Assembly (NCBI GenBank): GCA_947496235.1
Contig: CANMCE010000022.1
Location: forward strand, 1-47,436
DNA from: an uncultured Glaciecola sp.
GTDB lineage: Bacteria; Pseudomonadota; Gammaproteobacteria; Enterobacterales; Alteromonadaceae
Direction of reading: 5' to 3'
DNA: 47,436 nt
Part shown: in pieces, positions 4,404-26,100 of the stretch
How positions within the stretch are numbered: the stretch's first letter is position 1
Layout: the number at the start of each line of letters is the position of its first letter
Program-made: the position numbers and the translations under genes
Notes under the pieces: model-generated
Told to the model about the DNA's origin: nothing
Databases searched by the model: none
The model's input: only the letters and a program-made list of their open reading frames with translations

Positions 4404-5684
4404 TTAATACGAACAAAAAATCTGTCCGGTAATATCAGAGCCATCGTTTATATACAGTTTCTTACTATTAACATACTTTCTTATCAGATTGACTGGGTCG
4501 CAATAATGACATTGTATTTCACCATACTGTTCAACAGACACAAACTTTTCAATAGCGATTTTTCTCTGTCCTCGTACACCTACTTTCGCCTTTAAAAGAT
4601 TATGTTCCGTACCTGGAAAAATGAAATGTAAAGTGACTGTAACATCAACCCCACAAATCTCTTCAGCTGCTGTCTTATAAAAAAACTGCTTCACCAAATC
4701 TGGCCAGCCCGGCGCTGATTCAGCAGATGCTGCTTTGTAGTATTTTGCATCTATTACTGCCCACTTTTTATTATCTTTACTCGCAATGACAGTATCGGTC
4801 CTTTGCCCTTTCCCAGCGACTTCATGGTAGTGCTCATCCTGCAAATAGTAAGGAACAGGGAGTCTGTTGTTAATATCAATTTTATTGGGAAGACAGTTGT
4901 CCAGCATCCCCTCCCAAACATTGTGAAAAGCCCTTGTACCAACCAACAATTCGTAACCTTCAGTCTCAGAACTTTTTTGTATAAAGCGTTTCAGCATATT
5001 AATTAGCTGGATGTCTCGGTCTGAGTAGATTTGTGTCAACTCACGATCCAACTCTGAAACCTGAGTATCAAAATCACCATTAGGTTCAGGAAGTGTTTCC
5101 AGTCGTTCATCAAACAGTCTTTCCTGTCCAAAGAGCAATACACCATATTGTCGGCTGATTTCTTTGATAACTCGAGCGTGAATTCTGGCTGTTTCACTTT
5201 CTGAAACATAGCGCGTACAACTGGACTCAAAGGATAGATAAACGTGACTATTTCCAGATGGAAAAGGAGTGTGGCGAGAAATGGTTCTTTTCCAGTCGGT
5301 ACGCCCGTAATTTAATGAGTAATGTTTTTTTCTCCTGACATACAAACCGTTCGCTAGATAATCGTCGACCAGAGCTGAAGCTAGTGATAATGAATCACCA
5401 CCGATAAGTTCATTTTTATTGCCTTCATAAACTCCTGATACTTTACCGAAATAGTATCGCATCAGAGCCTGCAGCAAATAAAAAGCATTCTCTGACGTTT
5501 CATATCCTTCTTGGCTATTTCTAGGCATAAATACAGCGATTCCGTAATGCCATGAAACAAAACCGCAATACTGAACTTCAAGATGATCAGGAGCAATCAG
5601 GCCTTTCTGAGTCATCCTCTCCCTTAGCAGTGGAGGCAATAACTTGATTGCTGTTCTGTCTCTATGAAACGTCAGCTTATTCAT
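4404..5684 (-). CDS. LlaJI/McrC-type restriction endonuclease subunit
   Basis: 426 aa. Fits the nuclease subunit of McrBC-like, GTP/ATP-dependent restriction systems (RE_LlaJI group): a long N-terminal recognition or assembly region, then a PD-(D/E)XK core with D297 (RTDTV) and D312-A-K314 in an AVIDAKYY strand, the hallmark of McrC-like nucleases. It overlaps the upstream McrB-like gene by 4 nt (ATGA), so the two are translationally coupled, as expected for an ATPase/nuclease pair. Last gene of the five-gene operon. The nuclease presumably cuts when the AAA+ partner translocates. Target specificity cannot be read from the sequence; protection would come from the divergent cytosine methyltransferase. 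Confidence 0.8.
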   Translation of the reverse strand: MNKLTFHRDRTAIKLLPPLLRERMTQKGLIAPDHLEVQYCGFVSWHYGIAVFMPRNSQEGYETSENAFYLLQALMRYYFGKVSGVYEGNKNELIGGDSLSLASALVDDYLANGLYVRRKKHYSLNYGRTDWKRTISRHTPFPSGNSHVYLSFESSCTRYVSESETARIHARVIKEISRQYGVLLFGQERLFDERLETLPEPNGDFDTQVSELDRELTQIYSDRDIQLINMLKRFIQKSSETEGYELLVGTRAFHNVWEGMLDNCLPNKIDINNRLPVPYYLQDEHYHEVAGKGQRTDTVIASKDNKKWAVIDAKYYKAASAESAPGWPDLVKQFFYKTAAEEICGVDVTVTLHFIFPGTEHNLLKAKVGVRGQRKIAIEKFVSVEQYGEIQCHYCDPVNLIRKYVNSKKLYINDGSDITGQIFCSY

Positions 5685-7561
5685 TGTGAATCTGCTTTTG
5701 TGCCATGCTCTTTTATTAATTGGTCGGTTTCATCAGCAAATATAGGCTTATCCGTAGAAAAGTCGGTAAACAAATCACCAAAAGTTGTAATATCTTTTTT
5801 AAAGATACGCTTTCTGTCTTGATGTTTGTGCCTTAACACATCATCCCATAAATAAACAAAGAGTTTACCGCTCAAAGCCATTTTCCAATTTTTCAGCTCT
5901 ACTTTATCTAGAAAGAACGGACCAATTAAACGGTCTTCTGCGACTCTGAACTCTTTAAGCATCCTGTTGATAATACTATCTGCAAAGCTTTTCCAAGATA
6001 TATGATACATACCGTCAGTAGTTATCAACTCCAGTTGCTGCTCAGGTGCCTTATTGAAATTAAGGCTAATGTATTCGAAGGACCACCGACGCTTAAAAGC
6101 TGTATCTAATGGCATTACTGCCTGATCACTGCTATTCATTGTCGCGTAGATGAACAAATTAGAAGGTATCCTGAGTTCTTTTATTGATGTGGATATATTC
6201 TGCTTTAAGAACTCTAGTATATCCGGATCAGACACTTCAATACTGTATTTACTGCTACCGTCCTCGCCACGATCTAGCAACTGGAATATTTCGCCAAATA
6301 CTGCAGCTGCAGGAGCACGGTTGATTTCCTCGATGATAAGATAAACTTTATATGACGGATTTTTTTCCGCTTCTATAAGTGCTTTGACAAAAGGTCCGAG
6401 ACGATACTGATAAGTGATCAATGGTGAGCCATTTATTCTTTCAGTATGAGGTTTGAGTGAGCCGACAAAATCACTGTATTGAGTATCCGGATGGAACACA
6501 GTGACAACTTTCCTAGTACCTTCCTGATCAGTCAATTTTTTAATACTGTGACTTTTCCCAGTTCCGGGAGCGCCATAGATAATTTTATTCAGGCCACCTT
6601 TCACCCTTTCCGCAACTGCAGATCTTAAGTAAAACTTGTCTGCATCTTTTCCAACAACAACATTTTGCCAAAGATCTGATATCAAAGTAGATACATGATT
6701 AAAAACGGTATCAGTATCTAGTAAGCCTTTTTTAATAAATACATACTTCTTCTGAACAGAATGGTAATGAACCGGTTCTTCTACGTATGAAGAGTTGCCA
6801 GCTACAGGAGTATGACTTAGCAGAAAAGCATTAGGTATGCCATCCCAGTCCACCATGTCATCACTTTCTGAAGCAAATAGGTCATCAAACTTATTGTTCC
6901 AGCCAAGGATCGACATAATCATAAACAGAAGTTCATCACCCTTTTGCGCCAGCAGTAAATAGGGAACACTGGAAGAATAATGTTTAATCAAATATTCATA
7001 AGCGTCAGGTGACTCATGAAACGCATAAATCAGCTGACCTAACATATCAGAACTAACATCGCGAACAGGCATAGCCTTCAACAATATAGAGCGAAAAAAA
7101 TCACTGCCAGAGCGAAATTTTTTATTGGATTCACCTTGGGCATTAATAATATCTTTGGCGTTCAAGCGATCAGACTTGTTCTTAAATACCCTAACAAAGT
7201 TATCTTTACTGTATAAATCTAAAGTATCTAAAACACTATTCTTAGGGTTATGGCTGGTTATTAGATCATGGAACTCTGTAGCAGAAACATTTGTCGTAAC
7301 TTTATCAAAAATCTCCATATAACGACTAAGTAAGTCAACTAATGGCTTAATTTTTATCGCATACAAAAAGTAATGGCTAGGGATATAAGTATGATTTTTG
7401 TCACCGCTGACTCTTGCTGAGTAATCATACGTTTCTATATCTAAGTTGAGCTTTTTAAATTCCTGCTTCGCTTCATCTCCAAACTTTATTTCATCAAAGC
7501 GCCAGCCTTCATCCGGCTCACCCTGAAACCACTTCCCAACCACATTAATTTTTGAAAGCAT
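5681..7561 (-). CDS. McrB-like AAA+ ATPase (LlaJI R1 type)
   Basis: 626 aa. Residues 1-310 are an unassigned N-terminal region, probably for DNA recognition. The AAA+ module follows: Walker A GAPGTGKS at 330-337, Walker B with E411-E412 (LIIEEINRA), sensor-1 region ATMNSSDQ near 473-480, and FKRRW near 489-493. The EEINRAP and MNxxDxxxxxLDxAxxRRW patterns are those of McrB-type GTPases. It probably forms a ring motor activating the nuclease encoded immediately downstream (4-nt overlap). The gap to the upstream gene is 54 nt, the only real gap in the operon. Whether it uses GTP or ATP cannot be told from sequence. Confidence 0.85.
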   Translation of the reverse strand: MLSKINVVGKWFQGEPDEGWRFDEIKFGDEAKQEFKKLNLDIETYDYSARVSGDKNHTYIPSHYFLYAIKIKPLVDLLSRYMEIFDKVTTNVSATEFHDLITSHNPKNSVLDTLDLYSKDNFVRVFKNKSDRLNAKDIINAQGESNKKFRSGSDFFRSILLKAMPVRDVSSDMLGQLIYAFHESPDAYEYLIKHYSSSVPYLLLAQKGDELLFMIMSILGWNNKFDDLFASESDDMVDWDGIPNAFLLSHTPVAGNSSYVEEPVHYHSVQKKYVFIKKGLLDTDTVFNHVSTLISDLWQNVVVGKDADKFYLRSAVAERVKGGLNKIIYGAPGTGKSHSIKKLTDQEGTRKVVTVFHPDTQYSDFVGSLKPHTERINGSPLITYQYRLGPFVKALIEAEKNPSYKVYLIIEEINRAPAAAVFGEIFQLLDRGEDGSSKYSIEVSDPDILEFLKQNISTSIKELRIPSNLFIYATMNSSDQAVMPLDTAFKRRWSFEYISLNFNKAPEQQLELITTDGMYHISWKSFADSIINRMLKEFRVAEDRLIGPFFLDKVELKNWKMALSGKLFVYLWDDVLRHKHQDRKRIFKKDITTFGDLFTDFSTDKPIFADETDQLIKEHGTKADSQ

Positions 7562-7615
7562 AGTTACCCATTTCCTTAAAGAATCCGTCAGTACATCAGC
7601 ACCGCAGGTCTTAAC

Positions 7616-8539
7616 TTAATCGTTTTTAATCCATAAGCTACGTGATACAATCTGACGCATATTTTCGACGAATTTTTTGCTATCGTCAGAAAACTGACTG
7701 TTTTCAAACTCCCCCATATAGAACAGTAGTTCTGCTAAAGGTTTTGAGTGTTCTTCTGAAAGATTGCGTACTAACGGATGTTCGCAGTTCAACGTAATAT
7801 AGTGATCGTCATCATAACCTGGCTCCCATAAGGATCCATCTGTTGTTTTACCCAATCGAACGTCAACATCTTCCAATATTGGGGTAATAATACGTAAGCG
7901 CTGCAGGTGTTCTCCTCGACCTGAACAAAGAATTCTGAATTCAAGTAGAGCATTGAAAATAATGGCGAGCGCATCGCTGAATCCTGAACGATAAATATTG
8001 TAGCGATCGGCAATAATGTTGCCAAACATATCTGTATTATCCGCGCCGACTCCTTCACAATCAGGAATTAAATTAAATTGATTTCGAATCTCTACAGGCA
8101 TAAAGATACGAGCATATTTTTTTCCCTGATGCTGCAATGCTTCGGAAACTTTATCGATTGAAAATATAAAGTTATCTAGCCCTAAAATATCGGCAACCTC
8201 ATAAGACATGCGAACAACAGGAGACTTATCAGGAAGGTTTTCATTCAACCAGTCTTTAAGCGCCAAAGCTCGTCTCTTGAGGTCACCGTTAGGTAAATCG
8301 GCTACCTCAACAGCCATAGTCATTTCGAAGGAATCTCTATGACTGAAAGTCACTGCACTCCCTACTATCTGATAAACATAATCGGACACGATTTGGTCAG
8401 ACTCATTAAAAATACGATTGAACAAGTCTATCGGAATCGGTATACGGTTTTGCCAGAAAATCAGCCCGTCTACACGGTATTTAGGGTTTTTATCATTCAA
8501 GTAACGTTTAAAATCCCCTAGATCGAACTGATAACTCAT
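7616..8539 (-). CDS. MORC-partner protein sharing the GHKL protein's C-terminal domain
   Basis: 307 aa, no family recognised by name. Its last 70 residues (237-305) align with residues 442-517 of the neighbouring GHKL ATPase: LWEP..DD, then L..HP, then a helix with LL......E....FS, then RQ.VS..L. The two proteins therefore share a domain and probably dimerise or bind the same partner through it. The first ~230 residues lack the ATPase motifs. The start codon overlaps the GHKL stop by 4 nt, so co-production is expected. Role inferred: adaptor or second subunit in the restriction complex. Confidence 0.75.
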   Translation of the reverse strand: MSYQFDLGDFKRYLNDKNPKYRVDGLIFWQNRIPIPIDLFNRIFNESDQIVSDYVYQIVGSAVTFSHRDSFEMTMAVEVADLPNGDLKRRALALKDWLNENLPDKSPVVRMSYEVADILGLDNFIFSIDKVSEALQHQGKKYARIFMPVEIRNQFNLIPDCEGVGADNTDMFGNIIADRYNIYRSGFSDALAIIFNALLEFRILCSGRGEHLQRLRIITPILEDVDVRLGKTTDGSLWEPGYDDDHYITLNCEHPLVRNLSEEHSKPLAELLFYMGEFENSQFSDDSKKFVENMRQIVSRSLWIKND

Positions 8540-10125
8540 TCATCTTCCTCCGCATCGGGCAATTCTATACTCAGGTAACGAAGCGTTTGACTAACTTTTT
8601 GCCTAAAGCCTCTTAATGTGTGCTGATTAACCTCTGAAAATTCTCCATGTTCCGCATTAGCTAGACTCCAGAGCAGCATATCAAGCGCTTTTACCGCCTC
8701 AACATTGTCCTTGCAAACGTTGTACATCTTATGAAAATAAGGGTGAGTCTTACCGAGAGTAACACACGTATTACCTTCATCATCACATGATGGTTCCCAT
8801 AGTTCATCCCCTAGAATAGAGTCTTCTTCATGGACACGGACTTTTTTATCTTCATAAACCCTGATCCCTTCAATTACCACAGGTTTCATCTGATTCATGT
8901 TACGAATCGTTACGGTGTCACCGTCAACTGTCAACTCTGAGTTTTTTGTAAATTTGGAATGTTTATCTATCGCTTTATCGGCAGGACCATGAGCTCTGTT
9001 AGCGTTTGCAGCGATTGTTCGAGCCTGCCCTCTCAAAAGCTCCTGTCTCCATGGAGATACTAAACGTCGAAGTTCTTCTCGAATTTCCACTGGGATAATC
9101 ACGCGGCTTTTACGAAAGTCGATGTTAAACACATCGTCCAATTTATGATCAAAATGCAGTTCAACGCGAAGACGAGTTATCTTACTCTCTTTTTTATACA
9201 TGCGATGTGGCCAACCGTCATGCCATATTAACCTGCCTTCACGGTAAATATAGAAGCCCTGATTATCTAGACTGTACCGGACATACTTTTGTTCATCAGA
9301 ATTGAGGTCATTTTGAGAAGGAATTACACTGCCTTTTACAGTAAATGACTCCATATTCCCACTCAAATCGACAGGAACAACTTTCTCTCTAAGTATCCTA
9401 GAACGAACACCATCTAACGAAACAAAATCTGAGCAAAGCGGATCCCAACCTTTCAATTCGAAAGGAGCTTGATCACAAATTTTCATTGAAATTGAAACTG
9501 ATTTTTCAGCCAAAAACTTAAAAAATATGGCACTTAATTCCAGTGAAATCTCATGTCCAAGACTGTCTATCGCGGTTTTAGTTTGTTGAACACTAGCTTT
9601 TTTAATTAATCGGTCAGTATTTTCCCAGATGATCATAGTTCCGCCGTTATCAGTGAAACCTTTCAACTCTTCATAATCATCGTAATAGTCCTCAGCATCA
9701 GGAGTTTCCAGCTCCCATCGGTCAGTGCTGATGATTCTGTCAATATCCCAAGCACGACCAGTTTGAACACTATCTTTCTGAGTTAGTACGACAAGTCGGC
9801 GACAAAATGCCGTTGAGGCCGTTTTCAGGCCCATACCGAACTTCCCTAAAGATTTGGGATTTGCTCGTTTCTCCGAACCGTAGCGCATTGCATTTAGCAA
9901 CTCTGCTTCAGACATGCCATTGCCGTTATCGGTAAAAATGACTCTGAACTCACCATACATATACTGAAGCTCTATCGAAACTTTCGTGGCATTAGCAGCA
10001 ATGGCATTATCGATAATGTCTGCAAATGCGGCTTCACGGGTATAACCAGTATCTCGTAAACTTTCTACTAAACGTGCAGCGGAGGGACGAAAGTCATTTT
10101 CTAGTATTTCTTGTTGTTGACTCAT
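8536..10125 (-). CDS. MORC/Hsp90-like GHKL ATPase
   Basis: 529 aa. The three GHKL signatures are intact near the N-terminus: the N-box (E31...D36-IIDN40-AIAANA), the G1 motif DNGNGM (66-71) and the G2 motif GKFGMGLK (94-101). The order and spacing fit MORC-like ATPases of bacterial restriction neighbourhoods; such ATPases dimerise through the GHKL domain when ATP is bound and may clamp DNA. No topoisomerase or histidine-kinase domains follow. The C-terminal domain (442-517) is repeated in the next protein. Coupled by 4-nt overlaps to both the SNF2 gene upstream and the partner gene downstream. Confidence 0.85.
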   Translation of the reverse strand: MSQQQEILENDFRPSAARLVESLRDTGYTREAAFADIIDNAIAANATKVSIELQYMYGEFRVIFTDNGNGMSEAELLNAMRYGSEKRANPKSLGKFGMGLKTASTAFCRRLVVLTQKDSVQTGRAWDIDRIISTDRWELETPDAEDYYDDYEELKGFTDNGGTMIIWENTDRLIKKASVQQTKTAIDSLGHEISLELSAIFFKFLAEKSVSISMKICDQAPFELKGWDPLCSDFVSLDGVRSRILREKVVPVDLSGNMESFTVKGSVIPSQNDLNSDEQKYVRYSLDNQGFYIYREGRLIWHDGWPHRMYKKESKITRLRVELHFDHKLDDVFNIDFRKSRVIIPVEIREELRRLVSPWRQELLRGQARTIAANANRAHGPADKAIDKHSKFTKNSELTVDGDTVTIRNMNQMKPVVIEGIRVYEDKKVRVHEEDSILGDELWEPSCDDEGNTCVTLGKTHPYFHKMYNVCKDNVEAVKALDMLLWSLANAEHGEFSEVNQHTLRGFRQKVSQTLRYLSIELPDAEEDE

Positions 10126-11981
10126 AAACCTAAGTTTTCCAAATATGCAAGCATGATTTGCTTGTCTGTATCTTTATCATCAGCAACCGAGACGACTCGG
10201 TCACTCAGCTTTTGTTTGAGGCGTATTCGCTCATCAATCGTTTCTTCAATGGTATCGGCGTAATACATATAATAAACACTGACTATGGACTTTTGTCCAT
10301 TCCTCCATGCTCTAGCTGTCGCCTGCTCTTCTAGAGCTGGGTTCCATTGTCTGCTGTAATGAATAACGTGTGTAGCTGCCGTAATATTCAATCCCATTCC
10401 AGCAGTTTTTGGGTGAAGAATCAGGACATCAAAGCCATTCGAGGATGAAAATTTATCAATTAACAACTGACGTTTCACATTTGGCGTTCTCCCGTCGATA
10501 ACGCCAGCAATAACTCCGTACTTTTCTTTAATAGTACCTTTGATAAGATCAATAGCTCTCTGAAAGGTTGCAAAAATGATGACCTTTTCTTCTGCTTGGG
10601 CAATGACATCTAGTTTTAACAGCAACAGTTCAAATTTGGCACTCTGTTTTGACAACAAGCGAACGTCCGTTGGTATCACAGCATTTAGAAGAGATGGGTG
10701 CGCTGTAAACTGCTGAAGTTTATTTATCAGTGGAAGTATGCCTGCACCTCCTGCATCAGCATCAAACTTCATTTCTTCGATAATACTAGTGTATGCGGAC
10801 TTCTCAATGTCTCCCATCGATACAGGCAGATGTATGTCCAACTTTTCTGGAAGTTGTTCAAGCACATCTTTTTTCATCCGTCGAAGGGTTATCTGACGTA
10901 GTGATAATTCTAACTCTCCCAAATCTTTGTTGAGCGTTTCAGATAAATCACGGTTGACGTAGCGTGATTGAAATCTATCCTGTGACCCTAAGTATCCAGG
11001 GAATACCAAGTCACAAAGAGACCAAGCATCCAGTAAGCTATTCTCTACAGGGGTTCCAGACATTGCAACGACTACACCACTGTCCAAACGCCTTGCAGCA
11101 ATTGACCTTCTTGAGTTTGGATTTTTCAACATGCTTGCTTCATCAAACACAGTAAGAGCAAAATTCAACTCTTCTAGCATTGCGATATCAGAAGTCATCG
11201 TTGTATATGGCGTAATCACGACACTATGCGCGGAAAGAGCAGTGCTGATACCTCGTCGAGAGCTCCCGTAGTGTAAGTATGGTTCAATGCTAGCAGCAAA
11301 AAATGCGAATTCACGTATCCAGTTATCTAATAAAGGATTGGGTACCACTATCAGCACCCTTGCTTCTGGATTCTGTTCGAGAATATTGCAACATAAGGCA
11401 ATAATTTGGGCAGTTTTACCTAACCCCATATCATCTGCGAGGATTGTTCCAATACCGTTTTCCACACAAAAACTCAGCCATTCTACGCCCTCTTTTTGAT
11501 AAGGATATAGGTCCTTTATGAACAGATTCTCGTGATGGGAGATACTTTTTCTTTTTACTCGCAAGGTTTCCAAGAAGTTAGAAGGTAGCGGTTCACACAA
11601 GCCTTCTTGATGCAAAGTTCTTATCAGCTTGATTAAAGAGGGTAAAGGTAATTGCAAGTCAGCAAATGCCGTATCTACGTATTCCTTTATTTCTGTGTTC
11701 ACAAAGTAAATCCGTTTGGCATTAACAATAAAGTACCCCTGACACTTCAAAGAGTAGAGTTGCTGTTCATTCAACTGCTCACCTTTAAAACTGACAGAAA
11801 AATGGGGCGCAGGCTCTATATGGAAATGAAAGCGAATGTTTGCTGGGCGCTTTGAAGCAATTAGAGAAAGTTCTTCATCATTAAAAATGACATTAATACG
11901 ACCATAATTGTACAGCTCTTCCGATGATATTGGCACATTCTCAAACTCAATAACACCGTTATTAATCAGATATGTCATCAC
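10122..11981 (-). CDS. SNF2-family DNA translocase/helicase
   Basis: 619 aa. An N-terminal ~150-residue region precedes the two RecA-like lobes. Lobe 1 has Walker A DDMGLGKT (183-190), SNF2 motif Ia (VVPNPLLDNW) and motif II written DEAS (280-283) rather than DEAH, followed by SGTP. Lobe 2 has the GMGLN motif V region and QATARAWRNGQ as motif VI, diagnostic of the SWI2/SNF2 group. Expected to move along double-stranded DNA using ATP. It is the first gene of the minus-strand restriction operon, 108 nt from the divergent methyltransferase gene with the shared operator-like repeats between. Confidence 0.9.
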   Translation of the reverse strand: MMTYLINNGVIEFENVPISSEELYNYGRINVIFNDEELSLIASKRPANIRFHFHIEPAPHFSVSFKGEQLNEQQLYSLKCQGYFIVNAKRIYFVNTEIKEYVDTAFADLQLPLPSLIKLIRTLHQEGLCEPLPSNFLETLRVKRKSISHHENLFIKDLYPYQKEGVEWLSFCVENGIGTILADDMGLGKTAQIIALCCNILEQNPEARVLIVVPNPLLDNWIREFAFFAASIEPYLHYGSSRRGISTALSAHSVVITPYTTMTSDIAMLEELNFALTVFDEASMLKNPNSRRSIAARRLDSGVVVAMSGTPVENSLLDAWSLCDLVFPGYLGSQDRFQSRYVNRDLSETLNKDLGELELSLRQITLRRMKKDVLEQLPEKLDIHLPVSMGDIEKSAYTSIIEEMKFDADAGGAGILPLINKLQQFTAHPSLLNAVIPTDVRLLSKQSAKFELLLLKLDVIAQAEEKVIIFATFQRAIDLIKGTIKEKYGVIAGVIDGRTPNVKRQLLIDKFSSSNGFDVLILHPKTAGMGLNITAATHVIHYSRQWNPALEEQATARAWRNGQKSIVSVYYMYYADTIEETIDERIRLKQKLSDRVVSVADDKDTDKQIMLAYLENLGL

Positions 11982-11996
11982 TATTCTCTTTTTACC

Positions 11997-12010
11997 AGGT
12001 AAAAAACCGG
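11997..12010 (+). promoter_or_regulatory. operator-like repeat O1
   Basis: The 14-mer AGGTAAAAAACCGG contains the small dyad GGT-N5-ACC. An almost identical copy (13 of 14 bases) lies at 12060-12073. Both sit in the divergent intergenic region of the restriction cassette, close to the SNF2 start, and are good candidates for binding by the HTH domain of the methyltransferase. Confidence 0.6.
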
Positions 12011-12059
12011 ATACCTATTGCAATTTTTAGCACTCGTATATAAAGTTCGAGGTATTAAT

Positions 12060-12073
12060 AGGTAACAAACCGG
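12060..12073 (+). promoter_or_regulatory. operator-like repeat O2
   Basis: AGGTAACAAACCGG, the second copy of O1, 63 bp away (six helical turns) and only 16 nt before the GTG start of the methyltransferase gene. Occupancy here would block that gene, giving negative feedback. A TTGCAA box and a TATAAA box lie between the two copies, 15 nt apart. Confidence 0.6.
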
Positions 12074-12089
12074 AATTATTATAAGCACC

Positions 12090-13412
12090 GTGGCAGAAAT
12101 ATTAAATACCTCTCATCATATCAAACAGTTAAGAGAAAATCTTGGCTTAGGCCAGCGTGAGTTCGCAAACATGCTGGGGTTAGGCAAAGACGGGGAGCGT
12201 ACGGTCCGAGGATGGGAAAGTGGTGAACACCGACCTTCACCTCTTAAATGGAGTCGTATTATTGAACTGAAAGATCAAATGCAGCGCTACTACGATAACG
12301 CCCCGTTAAAACAAAAGCCTCTTAAAGACACTTTGTTTACCTTTATCGATTTGTTCGCGGGGATCGGTGGTATTCGCTATCCTTTTCAGCAGCTTGGTGG
12401 ACATTGTGTGTTCACTTCTGAATGGGATAAGTTTGCCCAGAAAACGTACTTAGAAAACTATGGCGAAATGCCCAATGGCGACATTACTAAGATTCCTGCT
12501 TCAAAAATTAACGACCACGATATTCTCTTGGGTGGATTCCCTTGCCAAGCATTCTCGCAGGCGGGACTAAAGCAGGGGTTTAATGACACCCGCGGAACTA
12601 TGTTTTTCGAGATTCAGCGAATCCTTGCTGCTAAAAGACCAAAAGCATTCTTACTGGAAAACGTTAAGCAGATTCGTACCCATGATAAGGGACGTACACT
12701 AAAGACAATATTGGATATTCTTCAGGGCAGACATGATCAAGAAATTCCTGATGACATCCCTATAAGTGAAGAAGCAAGACATGCCCTATCTGACAGACTG
12801 AACTACTGGGTTGATGTCCGCGTACTGAGAGCTGCAGATTTTGGCGCTCCACAAAACCGAGAGCGAGTTTTCATCATTGGATATAATAAAGATGAATTCC
12901 CAAGTGTGGATTTTGAACAATTGTTCCAGTGGCCGGAACCTCCGAAAACACCGACACGTGTCGGTGATATTCTTCAGACTCAACAGGAACTGGATGCAGA
13001 TAAAAAAGTTCAGGGTAAAGACCGCTTCACCATTTCCGATAAGCTATGGGAAGGCCATCAGAAACGTAAAGCTGAACATAAAACCAAAGGCAATGGTTTC
13101 GGTTATTCACTTTTTAATGCCGAAAGTAAATATACAAATACTATAAGTGCCCGTTACTATAAAGATGGTTCAGAGATCCTAATTGACCAAAGCCATCTAG
13201 GTAAAAATCCACGAAAGCTTACACCGAGAGAATGTGCTAATTTACAGGGGTTCCCGCCGGAATTTAACGTAGATGCCGTTTCTCAAGTTCAGATCTACAA
13301 GCAGTTCGGAAACTCGGTTTGTATGAACGTTATACATGCCGTAGCGGAAAAAATGGTATTGACGCTGACAAAAGCCTCAGAGCAATCACAAAACCAACTA
13401 AAAGTTGGGTAA
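12090..13412 (+). CDS. DNA (cytosine-5) methyltransferase with N-terminal HTH
   Basis: 440 aa. Residues 8-60 form an HTH of the XRE/HTH_3 type (QREFANMLG...RTVRGWESG). The 5mC methyltransferase core follows in order: motif I (DLFAGIGG, ~87-94), catalytic motif IV GGFPCQ with C152, motif VI ENV (190-192), motif VIII QNRERVFIIG, a variable target-recognition region, motif IX (RECANLQGFP) and motif X (QFGNSV). All catalytic motifs are intact. Methyltransferases with such an HTH arm are known to repress their own promoters (M.SsoII/M.EcoRII type), and matching repeats lie just upstream. The start is GTG with a poor ribosome-binding site; the next in-frame ATG would cut into the HTH. It protects host DNA from the divergent restriction operon. 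Confidence 0.93.
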   Translation: MAEILNTSHHIKQLRENLGLGQREFANMLGLGKDGERTVRGWESGEHRPSPLKWSRIIELKDQMQRYYDNAPLKQKPLKDTLFTFIDLFAGIGGIRYPFQQLGGHCVFTSEWDKFAQKTYLENYGEMPNGDITKIPASKINDHDILLGGFPCQAFSQAGLKQGFNDTRGTMFFEIQRILAAKRPKAFLLENVKQIRTHDKGRTLKTILDILQGRHDQEIPDDIPISEEARHALSDRLNYWVDVRVLRAADFGAPQNRERVFIIGYNKDEFPSVDFEQLFQWPEPPKTPTRVGDILQTQQELDADKKVQGKDRFTISDKLWEGHQKRKAEHKTKGNGFGYSLFNAESKYTNTISARYYKDGSEILIDQSHLGKNPRKLTPRECANLQGFPPEFNVDAVSQVQIYKQFGNSVCMNVIHAVAEKMVLTLTKASEQSQNQLKVG

Positions 13413-14063: not shown

Positions 14064-14903
14064 TTATATAAACCTATTTTGGCAAAACCACTGACTTTCA
14101 GACAGACAAGTATACAAAGCTGTTTGCCATGAATTTGTGTTAACCTGCATTCTACTTTCAGCAGCATCTCTTAAAAAGTTTTCTAACTCACCACCACCAC
14201 CATCTTCAAATATTTTCCTAGAGATGAACTCAATACTCGCAAGTTCTTCAGCTGCATGAGAAGAATAAAGAGAAGCTAATTTAAAAGTACTGAAATGGTG
14301 CTTTAACCTTTCCTTTAACAGTTCATCACAATTTCTAGGAGGATCAACATAAAACTCAATAGCGACAGGTATTGATTCCGTTAACTTTGCTTTTATCCAA
14401 GTAAAACCCTCAACGTCATCATAATACGGATGCAATGTTTCCTGTTCTGAATTTCTAGGAATATCTTCGCCTTTAGTTTTATTACAATCCTGACAGGAAG
14501 GAATCAAATTTAATGGTGAAACAGCCAATGATGGATAATGCGCTTTAGGTAAATGATGATCTAATGCAGAAACAACTCGCTGAGAACATAGCGGGCACCT
14601 TCCATGTTCAGGTAGTGCCATGATCCTGTCATAGTAAATCCTGCCTGGCGCCATTTTTTTAGCCATTCTCGAAGTATAAACTTTTTTCATCTCATCAACT
14701 GAAACGGCATCTGCCACATTATCTTTGGTCTTAATTGTATGTAACTCTGCTACTGCAGCTTTCTGGTCAAACTCTACTGAAGCTTCTCCAATCTCTTCTG
14801 AGCAGGATTGTAAACGGCGTTTGAGGTCAACATTCATTACGCGCTCAATACACGCCTCAAAAACAACAACTGCATTTTCATTTGGTGGCACCAATTTCCT
14901 CAT
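14064..14903 (-). CDS. ptuB: PtuB-like HNH endonuclease (Septu)
   Basis: 279 aa. An HNH module with structural cysteines lies at residues ~101-147: C103-P-L-C106, then LDHHLPK with H116/H117, then N132 LIPSC137-x-x-C140-N-K. The LDHxLPK and NLIPSCxxCN spacing matches HNH proteins paired with AAA ATPases in the Septu anti-phage system. The gene overlaps the upstream ATPase gene by 4 nt, the expected ptuA-ptuB order. In known Septu systems PtuB cuts DNA as part of a complex with PtuA. The HNH gene itself looks complete, but its partner is damaged, so the system may be inactive here. Confidence 0.75.
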   Translation of the reverse strand: MRKLVPPNENAVVVFEACIERVMNVDLKRRLQSCSEEIGEASVEFDQKAAVAELHTIKTKDNVADAVSVDEMKKVYTSRMAKKMAPGRIYYDRIMALPEHGRCPLCSQRVVSALDHHLPKAHYPSLAVSPLNLIPSCQDCNKTKGEDIPRNSEQETLHPYYDDVEGFTWIKAKLTESIPVAIEFYVDPPRNCDELLKERLKHHFSTFKLASLYSSHAAEELASIEFISRKIFEDGGGGELENFLRDAAESRMQVNTNSWQTALYTCLSESQWFCQNRFI

Positions 14904-15934
14904 ACTTGGGCTCTCTTCAAGACAAATAAAGCACGTAAAATCCCTTTAGCCTCTACGCCCAATTGACCATTAAAACTATTTACCGCCGCCTCATAATCTT
15001 CGAACTTAGCCACAGCATCGTTTAGTAAATTATGAAACCCGGAATCTGTATGTTCTAAGCCAAATACCTCTCTAGTTAATATACCTACATTTTCTCCAAA
15101 CGACTCTGTCTCGAGCCTTTCGACTTTTGATAGGTGCCCACTTCGCCAAAGTTTCCATGTACAACTTTTAGGTACTTCTTGAAGTACCACTGGTGAGTGA
15201 GTTGCTATTATAGAAACTGCATTTCTATTAATTAAAAGATCTGAAAGTGATCTAATAAAGGCAGATAACAACGGCGGGTGAAGATGAGCTTCAGGCTCAT
15301 CCAAAAAGACCAAGCTTCTCTCTTCAATTGTTTCTACCAGCCTAGTAATAGTAAGAAGTACAATTTTATGGCCGGAACTCAAATTCTTAAATATTCGCCC
15401 TGATACTTCTTTAAAATCATTCTCTTCTTCAATTTCTAAAATTGATGCAACATTAATGTCGCCGAAAACAGGATCTGTCTCTAGCTTTCCAATTGCCCTT
15501 TTCCAGCGTTCAATTTTATTTCCGGCTTTACATGCAAGTATACTTTTTACAAACTCATTTTTAAGAATGACGGGGCTTTTGGGCGGGAGGCTTTTTTCTC
15601 CAACCTTCTTTATTCTTTTTAAACCCACATAAGAAAACTGTATTCCCGATGACTTATCCCTTTTCTCAGGTAATGGCTCCGTTTCATCAAACGCGCTAAA
15701 GGTAACTGAAACAACGTTAGAAAAAAGCTCCCCATCAAAACTTTCTGTTGATGCGAATTCACCTACTTTAGAGGAAGGTGAGTCATCATCAATGAGAGAG
15801 CTAATCATGTTATTAATTAAGTGGGTTTTACCAACACCATTTCGCCCGATCAGCACATGTATATTTGTTGGTGGGTTACTTTCTGGAGTCACATCAAAAG
15901 CGAGCTCAATTCGTTTATCAACTGTGCCTTTCAT
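14900..15934 (-). CDS. ptuA: PtuA-like AAA ATPase, 5'-truncated (Septu)
   Basis: 344 aa from the first available ATG. ABC/SMC-like ATPase of the AAA_15/21 type: Walker A GRNGVGKT (30-37), signature-like SSGHK (186-190), Walker B LVFLDEPE (208-215) and H-loop ATHSP (244-248). The same frame stays open for 69 further codons upstream, to a TAG at 16142-16144, and reads like protein (KAIKERVTGTSLLRS), but contains no ATG, GTG or TTG. That TAG lies at the outer end of the IS6 remnant at 16146. The natural start was therefore lost when the element arrived. The listed ATG has no ribosome-binding site. Probably a pseudogene. Confidence 0.75.
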   Translation of the reverse strand: MKGTVDKRIELAFDVTPESNPPTNIHVLIGRNGVGKTHLINNMISSLIDDDSPSSKVGEFASTESFDGELFSNVVSVTFSAFDETEPLPEKRDKSSGIQFSYVGLKRIKKVGEKSLPPKSPVILKNEFVKSILACKAGNKIERWKRAIGKLETDPVFGDINVASILEIEEENDFKEVSGRIFKNLSSGHKIVLLTITRLVETIEERSLVFLDEPEAHLHPPLLSAFIRSLSDLLINRNAVSIIATHSPVVLQEVPKSCTWKLWRSGHLSKVERLETESFGENVGILTREVFGLEHTDSGFHNLLNDAVAKFEDYEAAVNSFNGQLGVEAKGILRALFVLKRAQV

Positions 15935-16145: not shown

Positions 16146-16934
16146 GTGTACTGACAAGTTAAGTTATGGACTTGAAATAATACTACCAGTCTAAATACTC
16201 AATTCGTTGTTATGTTCTTCCAAGACACAATTGCCCTATTCCTTAACATTTTACAATGCTTAGCAAACAACAGGAATCTCCCTAAATTGAATAAATTCTG
16301 AACTTCAGAATGAGTAATCAGAAATCACTGCCCTTGTTTAATAGAATTGAATATCCACATGACCCTATCTCTTATTCGAGTGGACTGATAAGATAACTCG
16401 GCTTTATTGTTCGCATATAAAGATTTGTAGTGAATAGAGCTTGGCATCAAGACTTTGCGAATTAGAGGATAACTGGGTAGTTTATAGGTGACTATCTTCC
16501 TTGGAAGTGCTTCGTTTACGTCAATCAAACGCTTAAATAAGCGTTTAGCGGCCTTACAATCTCGCTTCTCTTGGATAAATATATCAATGACATCCCCATC
16601 TTGATCGACGACTCGCCATAGATCATAGATAATGTCGGATCCCATTTACTTTTATAAAAACTTCATCAATGAAACATGTATTACCAAGTCCATTTCATTT
16701 TCTATTTAATCTTTTAGCATACGCAGGACCAAATTTGTTGCAACAACATCGAATAGCTTTATAACTAACTTCTGTACCTCGTTCGTTAAGTAAATTTTCA
16801 ACATATTTTAAATTAAAATTGAATCGGTAGTAGAGCCTTACTTAGCACTTACTGGTGCTCGGCGGAAATCTGAGACATTCATAAAAATTCATCCGATAAC
16901 TATGTTTGTCAGCGACATAACATGTCAATACTGT
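16146..16934 (-). mobile_element. IS6-family element B, near full length, decayed
   Basis: About 790 bp, the usual IS6 size. The ends are inverted: GTACTGACAAGTTAAG at 16148-16163, and at 16916-16932 a segment whose complement reads AGTATTGACATGTTATG. It encloses one transposase pseudogene. This is the best copy of the family in the window and the reference for the other fragments. Confidence 0.8.
16205..16892 (-). pseudogene. IS6-family DDE transposase, inactivated
   Basis: The reading frame can be followed from MNFYECLRFPPS (start ~16892) through RLYYRFNFNLKYVENLLNER, KFGPAYAKRL and FIDEVFIKVNG (first catalytic Asp) to LWRVVDQDGDVIDIFIQ (second Asp) and NLFNLGRFLLFAKH near the C-terminus. 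This is the standard IS6 layout over about 230 codons. It is broken by a TAA after codon 16, a TGA near codon 63, a frameshift near 16645 and a TGA at 16325 that replaces the usual Arg of the QRFL motif. The 106-codon frame at 16325-16645 is only its intact middle part. Confidence 0.85.
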
Positions 16935-21901: not shown

Positions 21902-22172
21902 GGTACTGACAATTTAATTTTAGAATTCGAATAACCCTACCTGTTTAAATATTCAATTCGCTGTTACGCTTCTCCCAGACACAACTGCCCTGCTCTCAAC
22001 ATTTTATAATGCTAAGCAGACTTCGGGTATCTACCTAAATTGAACAGACTTTGCAGGTTAGCATGAGTTCTAAGGAATCAAAGCACCTGCACTACGAACT
22101 GGAATTTAGGTTCTAGCCTGTCTCTTGCACAGGTTGGCTAATGAGATAACTCGGCTTTATTTTTCGCATGCA
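21902..22172 (-). mobile_element. IS6-family remnant D (3' end)
   Basis: Starts with the end sequence GGTACTGACAATTTAAT and runs into the 3' end of the next gene. The segment encoding AELSY in copy B encodes AELSH here and forms the last residues of that gene's product. Confidence 0.75.
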
Positions 22173-23013
22173 AAGATGTGTCATCAATATCACCTGACAT
22201 GAAGCCTAGAGAGCCGAAAAGATCATCAACATCTATGGACTGCACCTGACCCGCTTTTGCAGGTTGGCTCCCCAAATCCTCTACTTCGCTAAAACTTACA
22301 TACTCTCTGCGATTATTATAGAAATCCTCACTGAGCGTCCAAATAAACTTTTTTTTATATCGATTGGTAATTTCACTTAGTTCGTCAGCCAGGTCCACTG
22401 GATTTTTCACTCTAACTTCAAACGGTCGTTTCCGATCTTCTGTTTTAATCCACATAATAGATTGGTAAATGCATATCCCCCCATAAAAACCTTCTGTTGT
22501 TGCTTCTATGGCATGCTCGGGATTTGCTACCGCTCTTTGCTCTAGTTCATCAAAATTTAGTCCATCTTGATTAGATTCATTTTGCTGTAAATCATTTTCC
22601 CGAAGAATACCCTTTGATAAGCTAAGGATTTTAACTAGTCGATTATATTCAGCAGCTGTCAAAGACATTGTCGGAAAAGCACGCAAGAGTGCTTCTTCTT
22701 CATCCGAAAGTTCTCTCTCTCCATGATTTTTTAGTAACCTTAAATACGCAATTCGGAAGAAAAGCCGAAACAATTTCTTTAAATCGTAAATTCGTTTACC
22801 AAATAAATCTAATTGTTGGCTCTGCTGCTCCATCTCTAGGTATATTTTATCATTTTCAAATCGGATATAAATCTTTTGATTGTTGAACACTTTTTTCGAT
22901 AAAGTACCAAATATTTCATCCAAAATAACAGAATTATCCCTGAGTATCTTCGTATCCCAACTATCTGAAGTAAACCAGGCGCAAGTACTAAGAAGGGTTT
23001 TGTTTTGTTCCAT
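22138..23013 (-). CDS. partner of the giant recombinase, C-terminus fused to IS6 sequence
   Basis: 291 aa, family not recognised. Soluble and highly charged, with a long amphipathic helical region (about 60-145, DLKKLFRLFFRIAYLRLL) and an acidic C-terminal third. It follows the 1825-residue recombinase-like gene by 89 nt on the same strand and is presumably in its operon. The final residues SLHAKNKAELSH are in the frame of the IS6 transposase motif SLYANNKAELSY and end at a TAG that replaces the transposase CAG. An IS fragment has therefore replaced the original C-terminus; how many residues were lost is unknown. It may still be functional if the tail was dispensable. Confidence 0.65.
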   Translation of the reverse strand: MEQNKTLLSTCAWFTSDSWDTKILRDNSVILDEIFGTLSKKVFNNQKIYIRFENDKIYLEMEQQSQQLDLFGKRIYDLKKLFRLFFRIAYLRLLKNHGERELSDEEEALLRAFPTMSLTAAEYNRLVKILSLSKGILRENDLQQNESNQDGLNFDELEQRAVANPEHAIEATTEGFYGGICIYQSIMWIKTEDRKRPFEVRVKNPVDLADELSEITNRYKKKFIWTLSEDFYNNRREYVSFSEVEDLGSQPAKAGQVQSIDVDDLFGSLGFMSGDIDDTSLHAKNKAELSH

Positions 23014-23102
23014 ATTACTATCCTTATGATTGATTAAAAAATGTCATTCAAAAAGTAATATATCACTCGCAAATTGTTTTTCCGTTTACGCAAAACCTAT
23101 TA

Positions 23103-26100
23103 TCATTTTGATAGCTCACTACCGCTGAGCACCGCGTCTAGCAAGCCGAACAGGTAGTTTATCTTTAGGTTTATGCTCTTTGATTTTTTGCGCTTATCAT
23201 TAATAAAATAAACGTGATACCTATTTAACGCGCTGTTGGAAGATACTGCCATTAACGTCACGTTTAGCCCTAAATATTGACAAACCTCTTTAAACCTAGC
23301 TAACTCCAGTTCCTTGATCCACAGTGTGGTATTATTGGCATGCACTTTCCAAAATTGTATTACATAAAGCAGTTGTTCCGGTGTTTCAGCCAGTAACCTA
23401 ATTGCATTATTGAAAACCGCAATAAAAATCGGGCTTCCAAGATATGCGAAGGTTCGTTGAAAGGACAGACAATCGGCGTCGTTTACATTATCTATGTCTG
23501 CGAATATATGACTTGAATTGATTGCCTTTACATACGCCTTCAATTTATCAATTTGTTTTTGAAGAACATTGGGTACGTTGTTAGGTAAGTTATTTCTTTG
23601 TGTTTCAAAGCGCTCAAGCAATGTAGTGTGTAAATGAAGGCACTGTATCTCTACCGCTTTTGGATAAGACACCAAGCTATATAGTTCTGGTAACGCTACT
23701 TTGATATCTGAGCATTGAATGACATCATTAGGAAGTACGTTTGGCATTCCTCTTATTTTTGTTCTGACATGAACCTCGAGCCTAAATTGTCTGTTGGGTG
23801 TTCCTTTTATTTTATTTTGCTGCGCTGTTATTTGTTTGATAAAACGGGTGTGTCGAGTGAGTCGTTTTACCCCATTGTTGCTGTCCATTTCACTAATTAT
23901 ATTGAGCGCATGAAGGTAATACTCCCTGCAGGTAATTGGAGAATGCCCCATCCTTTGAGCTAATGCTCGAAATGCTATGCCTCCTACTTCACTTTGCTGT
24001 GAAATGAGTGAACGCAGTAATTCAGCTCTAAAACTTTCAAGGTCATCATTGCGACACCACTCTTGCATTACCTTTTTATACCGAGTATCCTGATGGGCAT
24101 TGCCTAAAAACAGTACGTGAAAATTGACAAAGCTATGCCGACAGTCGTATAAGCGTACAGATGGATTATTACTCACGTGTTTTAAGATATTGCCAAGGTT
24201 ATTTGTGACAATCTCGAATACATACTGGATGTGCTCAATAGAAGCGCCCATAAAATACGAGAGAAAGCTAAAATCTCTGTTGTCTTTAGGTGTATATAAT
24301 CTATTAATATGATCAACCAGATTTGTAAGGATCTCTTTTTCATAGTCATTAAGATAAAGCGACAATGGGATCCTTCTAGGTGTGTTAACAGATTTACTCG
24401 GTAGGTATTTGCGCCCCTGCACAGCTAAAATCCAGTTTTTGGTATCAAGCTGCTTGTGATGTATCAGCTTCAAATCCATCGGTCGCAATCCTGCGCGTTG
24501 ACAGAAAATTAATGATGCTTTGTGGACCAGCTTATCATCATCACTAAATACGCTTACCTCATCAATTGCATGTAGTGCGTCTTGGTAATTCTGCTCTGTG
24601 ACGATGTTGCTTAAATTACTGGACTTGAAACGCCTATTACTATTGAATAGCTGCCAAACATGTGAAAGATCGACATTTGGCGGATTTAAAAACCTCGCTG
24701 TAGTGTCATTAAAGTCCCTTAAACGCGACAACAACACATCGTCAACCTTACGAGTTAAATTTTTAACGGCATCAAAATATAAGTGCGAAAACTCTTCCTC
24801 ATCATAAAAAAGAAATTGTGAATCTTTTACTACAGGTCCAAGTGTTTTATAAACGGTCGTTAGATACTCAACTAAAGAGGTGGATAATATTTTGTTTTTA
24901 GGATTTTTTCTGGATTGGCGACCTGATGCTTCATGCATAAAAGCCAATAGTGCTAACGATAAATGTGAAAGTTGCTGAGAATTTTTAATAAGCCAAGTTA
25001 TATCGTCACTTTGTGTGACACCAATGATTTCCGCCCAACATGCAAGAATGTTCGACCGGTTACCATATGCTGACTTTTCAATCGTTTCTTTTAATTTGTC
25101 ATACACATCAATGTTGCCAACACTTTGAGGGACCTTTATTAAATTGGAGACGATGTTTTTGTCTTTTGATGACTGTTCTTTTGGTTCGGTTTTCAGGATC
25201 AACCGAGGCGCTAACTGAGTCAGTTTTATAAGATCACAAAATGCGTAATGACTAGACTTAAATTTCGCTACGCTGTTAACAAAGCCAATCCGTGAATTTT
25301 GAAAAATAGCATTTCTACACATAAACATCTTCAACCGATTCACATGTAACAACGCTCGCTCAACTTGTTGTTCATTTAGATATGGTACGACGTGGTGTTT
25401 AAATTGATTAAAAACCTTTGCCATATGTTTTTTGTTGAGAATTAAAAATTGGGGGGGGATGTCAACACTCGGACCTTCGTATTCCTTTTGGCTATGATTA
25501 CTGACTGAATTTAACAGCAAATAGCTGCTCATCAAATTTAATGGGTATACAGTTTTATTGCCTTCTTGCGCTTGAATATAAAATGTATCTCTATACTTAT
25601 ATATAGCAAGTTTAGCAGGCAGATGTCGGCGTTCTTGTTCGATAACCGCAGGCTGAAACAGTATTAGGCTTAAATATATAGTTTCATGGGTATATTCAAA
25701 TTCATCTGATCTTTCGACGTCTTGTTCATTACCCACGGCCAGAAATTCGAGGAACTGCTTTTGCAAGATCTCAATGGTTTTAGCACAGTATAGTGAATGT
25801 AGATGTCCTGAATGTTTCGCACCGCCAGCCCGTAACATTTTTTTACGAAGCCTTACATCGTCAGTTTCTTTGAAGTACCCCTGTATATTATCAAGCAATA
25901 TCCCATAAAGCTTAATATGACGTGTCGGCCAGTCGTCTGGCGTTTTCCTGACTTTTAATTCAGAAAATATTTGTTCTAACCGGTCATCCCTTGAGGCATA
26001 CAGATCGGGAACAGTTTTTATTTGTTCAAGTATGAACTTCATCACAGTCGTTCGATTAGTTTCTCTTTCTAGCCACATGGCGGGGCTATAAAAAGCATTC

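Follow-up and report, generated by a model that had tools for sequence, protein, structure and literature searches.

A rare cassette in an uncultured Glaciecola joins a LlaJI-type restriction system to an SNF2–MORC pair and a 307-residue MORC-related protein

In the LlaJI restriction–modification (RM) system of Lactococcus, as set out by O'Driscoll et al. 2006 (PMC1459862), a McrB-like AAA+ protein with a unique N-terminus is combined with a PD-(D/E)XK LlaJI nuclease and C5-cytosine methylation. The McrB-like subunit (R1.LlaJI) alone bound the site, both R subunits were needed in vivo, and the system acted in vivo as conventional restriction of unmodified DNA. From another direction, Iyer et al. 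2008 (PMC2292703) described pairs of SNF2 and MORC genes with HNH/EcoRII nucleases, put forward a role for bacterial MORC proteins in restriction operons as a prediction, and proposed MORC looping between the recognition and cleavage site; the words LlaJI and Mcr are absent from the text of that paper. Here we analysed a 47,436-nucleotide (nt) stretch of DNA from an uncultured Glaciecola sp. (GCA_947496235.1, contig CANMCE010000022.1, positions 1 to 47,436; the whole stretch is called the window below), in which an earlier note had described a six-gene restriction cassette at 4404–13412 that includes both kinds of component. We found that two known modules, a LlaJI-type restriction system of three genes and an SNF2–MORC pair, have been fused in the cassette and that this fusion recurs; LlaJI systems and SNF2–MORC pairs also occur apart. 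The union of both modules, together with a 307-amino-acid (aa) protein, appears to be the novel part.

The cassette consists of six open reading frames (ORFs), five on the minus strand and a divergent methyltransferase. Transcription of the minus-strand genes would run in the order SNF2, MORC, 307-aa protein, McrB-like AAA+ and LlaJI nuclease. The earlier note had reported 4-nt overlaps between most of the genes, and these occur at three of the four minus-strand junctions (SNF2/MORC, 10122–10125; MORC/307-aa, 8536–8539; McrB/LlaJI, 5681–5684), with 54 nt between the 307-aa and McrB genes. The genes are as follows.

12090..13412, plus strand: C5-cytosine DNA methyltransferase, 440 aa, with an N-terminal helix-turn-helix (HTH) and a Dcm-like target-recognition region (Pfam and alignment with Dcm).
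10122..11981, minus strand: SNF2-family DNA translocase, 619 aa; translation more probably starts at the ATG at 11978 (Pfam, motifs).
8536..10125, minus strand: MORC-family GHKL ATPase, 529 aa, with the S5 MORC signature and a C-terminal domain common with the 307-aa protein (Pfam, PDB match, alignment).
7616..8539, minus strand: 307-aa partner protein; residues about 233–303 homologous to the MORC C-terminus (profile 441–519; hhalign).
5681..7561, minus strand: McrB/R1.LlaJI-like AAA+ motor, 626 aa, with a unique N-terminal 324 aa and an AAA+ domain (Pfam, profile match).
4404..5684, minus strand: LlaJI-family PD-(D/E)XK nuclease, 426 aa (Pfam, alignment).

The family calls of the earlier note were each right. 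Five of the six proteins exceed the curated Pfam cut-offs (RE_LlaJI, AAA_5, HATPase_c_3, SNF2-rel_dom and DNA_methylase), the 307-aa protein being the exception. The nuclease matched RE_LlaJI at 118.6 bits (cut-off 23.6), and D297, D312 and K314 do not vary among its 14 aligned rows. The McrB-like protein matched AAA_5 at 40.3 bits (cut-off 22) and, as a profile, the solved McrB structure (6hz4, E 1e-15); its N-terminal domain gave a predicted model with a mean local confidence (pLDDT) of 84.3. The features of a LlaJI-type RM system are present, namely a LlaJI nuclease with the D...DxK motif, an adjoining McrB-like AAA+ protein with a non-conserved N-terminus, and a C5-cytosine methyltransferase. 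McrBC (Type IV) has the McrB AAA+ domain in common with the cassette, but here the partner is RE_LlaJI, not McrC, and a dedicated methyltransferase is added. The PADLOC REase_II and MTase_II models match the McrB, LlaJI and methyltransferase proteins, and PADLOC might therefore name part of the cassette Type II restriction. A restriction role for the cassette, as read by the earlier note, is well supported. In contrast to the four genes and two methyltransferases given for the Lactococcus system (PMC1459862), where SNF2, MORC and a 307-aa protein do not figure, the cassette has a single methyltransferase.

The other half of the cassette corresponds to the group 2 MORC operons of Iyer et al. 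2008 (PMC2292703), which likewise have SNF2 beside MORC, a cytosine methyltransferase and the diagnostic S5 motif, so the lead to this work in the earlier note was sound. Those operons often carry HNH or EcoRII-like nucleases; the six cassette proteins gave no such Pfam match and include LlaJI instead. The SNF2 protein matched SNF2-rel_dom at 178.2 bits (cut-off 24.9) and Helicase_C at 66 bits, and the motifs ADDMGLGKT and DEAS were read in the alignment. The MORC protein matched HATPase_c_3 at 100.1 bits (cut-off 25), with the ATPase MORC2 as its best PDB match (E 1.8e-7), and has the GHKL ATP-binding motifs DNGNGM and GKFGMGLK. Its S5 sequence GFYIYREGRLI fits GhXhhpXXRhl, the MORC-defining pattern of that study (PMC2292703). 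The nearest NCBIfam/PADLOC family to this MORC is MzaB, the GHKL protein of MZA. Models of two other systems scored below their curated cut-offs: Zorya ZorD 265.4 bits against a cut-off of 1500, DISARM DrmD 66.1 against 950 and 39.8 against 610. The DISARM partner domain PF09369 (MZB, formerly DUF1998) was absent from the six proteins in the Pfam scan. We also sought a single named defence system and rejected this, as matches in Pfam, PADLOC (compared at the level of gene models), NCBIfam and PHROGs (five proteins, without the methyltransferase) were per-gene only. The earlier note had known of no named system with exactly this set; this held for the libraries, although the set proved to be a fusion of two known modules.

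The earlier note had left the sixth protein unrecognised. Indeed, searches of Pfam, PADLOC, NCBIfam and PHROGs gave nothing for the 307-aa protein, but its C-terminus corresponds to the C-terminal domain of MORC. Residues 233–303 aligned with positions 441–519 of the MORC profile (hhalign 96.2%, E 2.2e-9, a pairwise comparison with a MORC profile that included EcoRII-type relatives), and a profile of the cassette MORCs alone gave 91% and E 9e-7. A hidden Markov model of the 307-aa family, run on the genome that holds the window, also picked up the C-terminus of MORC (E 1.7e-6), and in blastp against an 11-protein database of window proteins, 307-aa relatives matched the window MORC in seven of ten cases (E 3e-6 to 1e-7). 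Because profile, model and blastp matches agree, the 307-aa protein, as judged by homology, has the C-terminal domain of MORC but lacks its ATPase. Residues 1–230 are without assignment. Separately, we considered a degenerate HNH protein and rejected it (hhalign 0.5%, E 0.11 against HNH proteins of other SNF2–MORC operons). Through the domain common to both proteins, the 307-aa protein may dock on MORC.

The cassette recurs in other proteobacteria. When genome_contigs was scanned for the 307-aa protein by short peptide patterns, with a reach of close relatives, ten loci were obtained. In all ten, SNF2, MORC and McrB keep their order relative to the 307-aa gene and a methyltransferase lies nearby, and nine have LlaJI; as a neighbourhood, the set put forward in the earlier note is thus conserved beyond chance. 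Two extra loci were added: the Vibrio vulnificus plasmid pFORC54, the one such record among 72,556, in which several of the genes are disrupted, and an IMG/VR contig (L033) where the cassette adjoins a phage-type integrase. With the window this makes 13 cassettes; among the 12 relatives, SNF2, MORC, McrB and the methyltransferase are present in 12 and LlaJI in 11. The named gammaproteobacterial hosts are Vibrio, Photobacterium, Aliivibrio, Amphritea, Shewanella, Xenorhabdus and a Bathymodiolus symbiont, and one named host, Duganella (L011), lies outside this list. In 10 of the 13 loci the methyltransferase gene adjoins SNF2 and is read divergently. L011 and L033 have it at the other end of the set, pointing towards the operon in L011 and on the operon's strand in L033, and in Xenorhabdus (L010) it lies beside a second McrB–LlaJI pair. 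Two Vibrio penaeicida records hold differing cassettes (methyltransferases 88% identical, LlaJI 55%) with different flanking ORFs, and these differences in sequence and flanks are consistent with horizontal transfer. In samples of 369 and 398 genomes the 307-aa protein was seen solely in the window's own genome; 50,697 phage records held no match to it, and a DNA-level search of E. coli with 7616–11981 found no near-identical sequence.

Although rare, the cassette is intact in the window. A decaying remnant without present function would explain the broken genes in L007, L010 and L023, but we consider it very improbable, since none of the six genes in the window is interrupted and the catalytic motifs are conserved, which also applies to nine relatives. 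All six proteins are stop-free in 10 of the 13 loci (the window and nine of the 12 relatives), and the three broken-gene loci were excluded from the 10-locus comparison below. L007 lacks LlaJI and has a truncated McrB; two ORFs beyond its McrB look transposase-like by eye, Pfam giving only an HTH in one of them.

The two halves of the cassette were also found separately. The SNF2–MORC module accompanied LlaJI in one of seven plasmid records with LlaJI and in one of the three LlaJI-positive genomes among 398, so that LlaJI systems without SNF2–MORC outnumber those with it in the samples searched. Elsewhere, SNF2–MORC is paired with EcoRII-N/HNH instead of McrB–LlaJI, and the relatives we fetched carry EcoRII-N, HNH and Vsr. 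Two stand-alone three-gene systems, L034 (Salinivibrio plasmid pM138.2) and L048 (a phylum-sample genome), have the McrB AAA+ and LlaJI as in the cassette and Dcm-like methyltransferases 76% and 61% identical to that of the cassette, respectively; nothing in these stretches matched SNF2, MORC or the 307-aa protein, and their McrB N-terminal domain is of another type. The earlier note had counted homologues usually occurring apart against its proposal. LlaJI and SNF2–MORC do occur apart, but every 307-aa relative found was in the company of SNF2, MORC, McrB and methyltransferase, in searches that mainly reach close relatives.

This raises the alternative that two independent defence systems, a LlaJI RM system and SNF2–MORC–307 with its own effector, travel together in one regulated neighbourhood and act in separate DNA events. 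LlaJI systems do stand alone, and in Xenorhabdus (L010) a methyltransferase/McrB/LlaJI set adjoins an SNF2–MORC–307–McrB set. However, we think this unlikely, because the order SNF2–MORC–307–McrB is invariant across the 13 loci, with McrB directly after the 307-aa gene in all of them, the gene overlaps suggest one transcript, and the Pfam scan of SNF2, MORC and the 307-aa protein found no nuclease family. As an observation on the Xenorhabdus locus itself (L010, 1158–12882), it has two McrB genes; the first goes with LlaJI and the methyltransferase, the second ends the SNF2–MORC–307 run without its own LlaJI, and a Vsr-like ORF (by eye) lies between the sets.

In ten intact loci, median pairwise identity was 0.78 for the methyltransferase, 0.76 for MORC, 0.75 for the 307-aa protein, 0.68 for SNF2, 0.51 for McrB and 0.44 for LlaJI. 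Correlation of distance matrices (nine loci, without L011 and without controls) was highest for the methyltransferase and 307-aa protein (r 0.93), and LlaJI correlations with the others were weakest (r 0.42 to 0.75, the lowest with the 307-aa protein), a point in favour of independent systems. These values fit a stable methyltransferase/SNF2/MORC/307 core, with a nuclease that may evolve faster or be exchanged.

The methyltransferase offers a prediction of the target. It matched DNA_methylase at 317.4 bits (cut-off 22) and HTH_3 at 22.9 bits, just below the cut-off of 23. Compared with E. coli Dcm, 148 of 396 residues are identical overall and 24 of 53 in the recognition stretch, where the common residues include GNGFGY and SARYYKDG. 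Since this stretch is Dcm-like, a site of the CCWGG or CCNGG type is predicted, different from the GACGC site of LlaJI. The stretch is 47/53 identical in Salinivibrio (L034) and 41/53 in Duganella (L011). The McrB N-terminal domain, in contrast, exists as type A (L034 and L011) and type B (the window and most cassettes), which match weakly (hhalign 21%, E 0.001, two-row profile). The two types may thus recognise one and the same site, or else recognition lies with a different subunit. Accordingly, a second alternative is that SNF2–MORC–307 is the reader of the unmodified Dcm-like site and McrB–LlaJI its recruited motor and nuclease. The swapped McrB domain beside an alike methyltransferase recognition region, the high correlation of the 307-aa protein with the methyltransferase, and the better conservation of methyltransferase, MORC and 307-aa protein than of McrB and LlaJI in ten loci are all in its favour. 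Against it, the McrB-like subunit of LlaJI alone bound its site (PMC1459862), Duganella (L011) has the module yet a McrB domain of the stand-alone kind, and the correlation comes from nine loci without controls; we regard it as rather unlikely.

Upstream of the methyltransferase we noted the following elements.

11992..12011, no strand assigned: operator-like repeat copy 1, core AGG-N6-ACCGGAT (repeat search; conserved in a 9-locus alignment).
12055..12074, no strand assigned: operator-like repeat copy 2, core AGG-N6-ACCGGAA (repeat search, 9-locus alignment, pattern counts).
12018..12046, plus strand: promoter-like TTGCAA-N17-TAAAGT between both repeats (9-locus alignment).

The repeat, (A/C)GG-N6-9-AC(C/A)GGA(A/T), closely precedes the start of the methyltransferase gene in each of the 13 cassettes as well as in L034, with a second copy 61–65 bp away on the SNF2 side in 10/10 divergent loci and nine occurrences elsewhere on both strands of 14 loci (305,012 bases); these counts are descriptive and no independent test, as the pattern was written after viewing the alignment and upstream regions. 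An earlier, stricter pattern missed the copies in L007, L010, L011, L033 and L034, and of the two copies in L006 it caught one. The putative promoter-like element at 12018–12046, which was not among the consensus promoter matches, has the form TTGC(A/T)(A/T)-N17-TACAGT in eight aligned relatives, again between the repeat copies. The simplest reading of the repeats is that the methyltransferase represses its own gene through its HTH. In the divergent arrangement the repeats also suggest that methyltransferase and operon are coupled, which could serve as a loss-of-modification alarm, in which MORC would sense the methylation state and trigger broad DNA destruction by McrB–LlaJI as an abortive defence when the methyltransferase is lost or inhibited. 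The McrB family does include methyl-specific Type IV enzymes, but the nuclease is of LlaJI type, not McrC, and the known LlaJI system restricts unmodified DNA in vivo in the conventional manner (PMC1459862), and we hold this alarm to be improbable.

Taken over all loci, we think it reasonably probable that the cassette is a mobile, Type II-like RM system for phage defence in which the SNF2–MORC–307 module and the LlaJI-type methyltransferase/McrB/LlaJI genes act jointly. The methyltransferase would modify host sites of the Dcm (CCWGG/CCNGG) type and, via its HTH and the repeats, repress its own promoter as well as the operon in loci with the divergent arrangement. A McrB-like ring bearing the LlaJI nuclease would translocate along unmodified DNA and cut it. 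SNF2, MORC and the 307-aa protein, docked via the C-terminal domain it has in common with MORC, would make up a translocating clamp, driven by ATP, which scans DNA or holds it and passes it to McrB–LlaJI, with SNF2–MORC–307 placed where other SNF2–MORC operons have EcoRII-N/HNH proteins. All three ATPases may thereby act on one target, as the earlier note had supposed. We infer the clamp role and the identity of the site reader, as well as target, division of labour, docking, repression and defence, from homology and gene arrangement. More tentatively, and with considerable doubt, we propose that the 307-aa protein arose from a copied MORC C-terminal domain, serves MORC as a dedicated partner and lets the MORC clamp and SNF2 load or activate the McrB–LlaJI ring at unmodified Dcm-like sites.

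Several observations weigh against joint action as proposed. Because McrB–LlaJI is found without the SNF2–MORC–307 module, that module may be accessory or independent. Catalytic Glu is expected in the N-box of MutL and eukaryotic MORC proteins, but each of the 14 aligned MORC rows has Asp there (residue 36 in the cassette MORC), which makes ATP turnover uncertain. The AlphaFold2 model of the 307-aa protein is weak (pLDDT 67.6; predicted template modelling score, pTM, 0.58). The mirror-tree figures come from nine loci without control genes, and locus kinship alone could raise the values. The McrB N-terminal domain comes in two types whose kinship is not established, beside methyltransferase recognition regions that are alike, so the site reader may be McrB or another subunit. 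Finally, the repeat is missing upstream of the methyltransferase genes in the stand-alone systems L047 and L048, which were not used for the pattern, and upstream of SNF2 in L010 and L033, and L011 has only a weak reverse-strand match ahead of SNF2; therefore, operon control via the repeat is not general.

Other candidate defence genes lie near the cassette. At 14064–15934 of the window, an AAA ATPase and HNH pair matches PADLOC PDC-M01A/PDC-M01B and PtuA, a Septu-like candidate defence pair; the HNH gene (14064–14903) belongs to this PtuAB-like pair and not to the cassette. A PD-(D/E)XK gene (PDDEXK_4, PADLOC candidate PDC-S26) occupies 302–1468, and a 38% identical relative lies ~6 kb from the stand-alone LlaJI system in L047. 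Both the pair and this gene were rejected as cassette members, having no matches in L002–L011. A short ORF at 16325–16645 with an IS240-type DDE transposase domain match suggests mobile DNA near the defence genes. Further along (22138–28580), a 1825-aa protein has a tyrosine-integrase match just below the cut-off (residues 1327–1558) and is followed by a 291-aa protein without a Pfam match. In other loci, a 1178-aa protein with Prok-E2, ThiF, JAB and patatin domains lies upstream of an SNF2–MORC–HNH operon (L025, 2469–6005), and seemingly the same three-gene set, possibly another defence unit, flanks the cassette on opposite sides in L003 (14437–19054) and L009 (57–4917), and in each of these sets one gene has a MrfA Zn-binding (MZB) domain.

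LlaJI-type systems that have a Dcm-like methyltransferase occur both with the module (the window and 12 loci) and without it (L034 and L048), a natural comparison. Because like systems exist with and without it, the contribution of MORC and SNF2 is directly measurable. The 307-aa protein, as a small separate carrier, gives a handle on the role of the MORC C-terminal domain. The cassette would offer a bacterial setting in which MORC function can be tested. If the more tentative proposal on the 307-aa protein is true, the cassette would be a three-motor restriction machine with MORC as a methylation-gated clamp, a bacterial counterpart of the eukaryotic MORC silencing of unprotected DNA.

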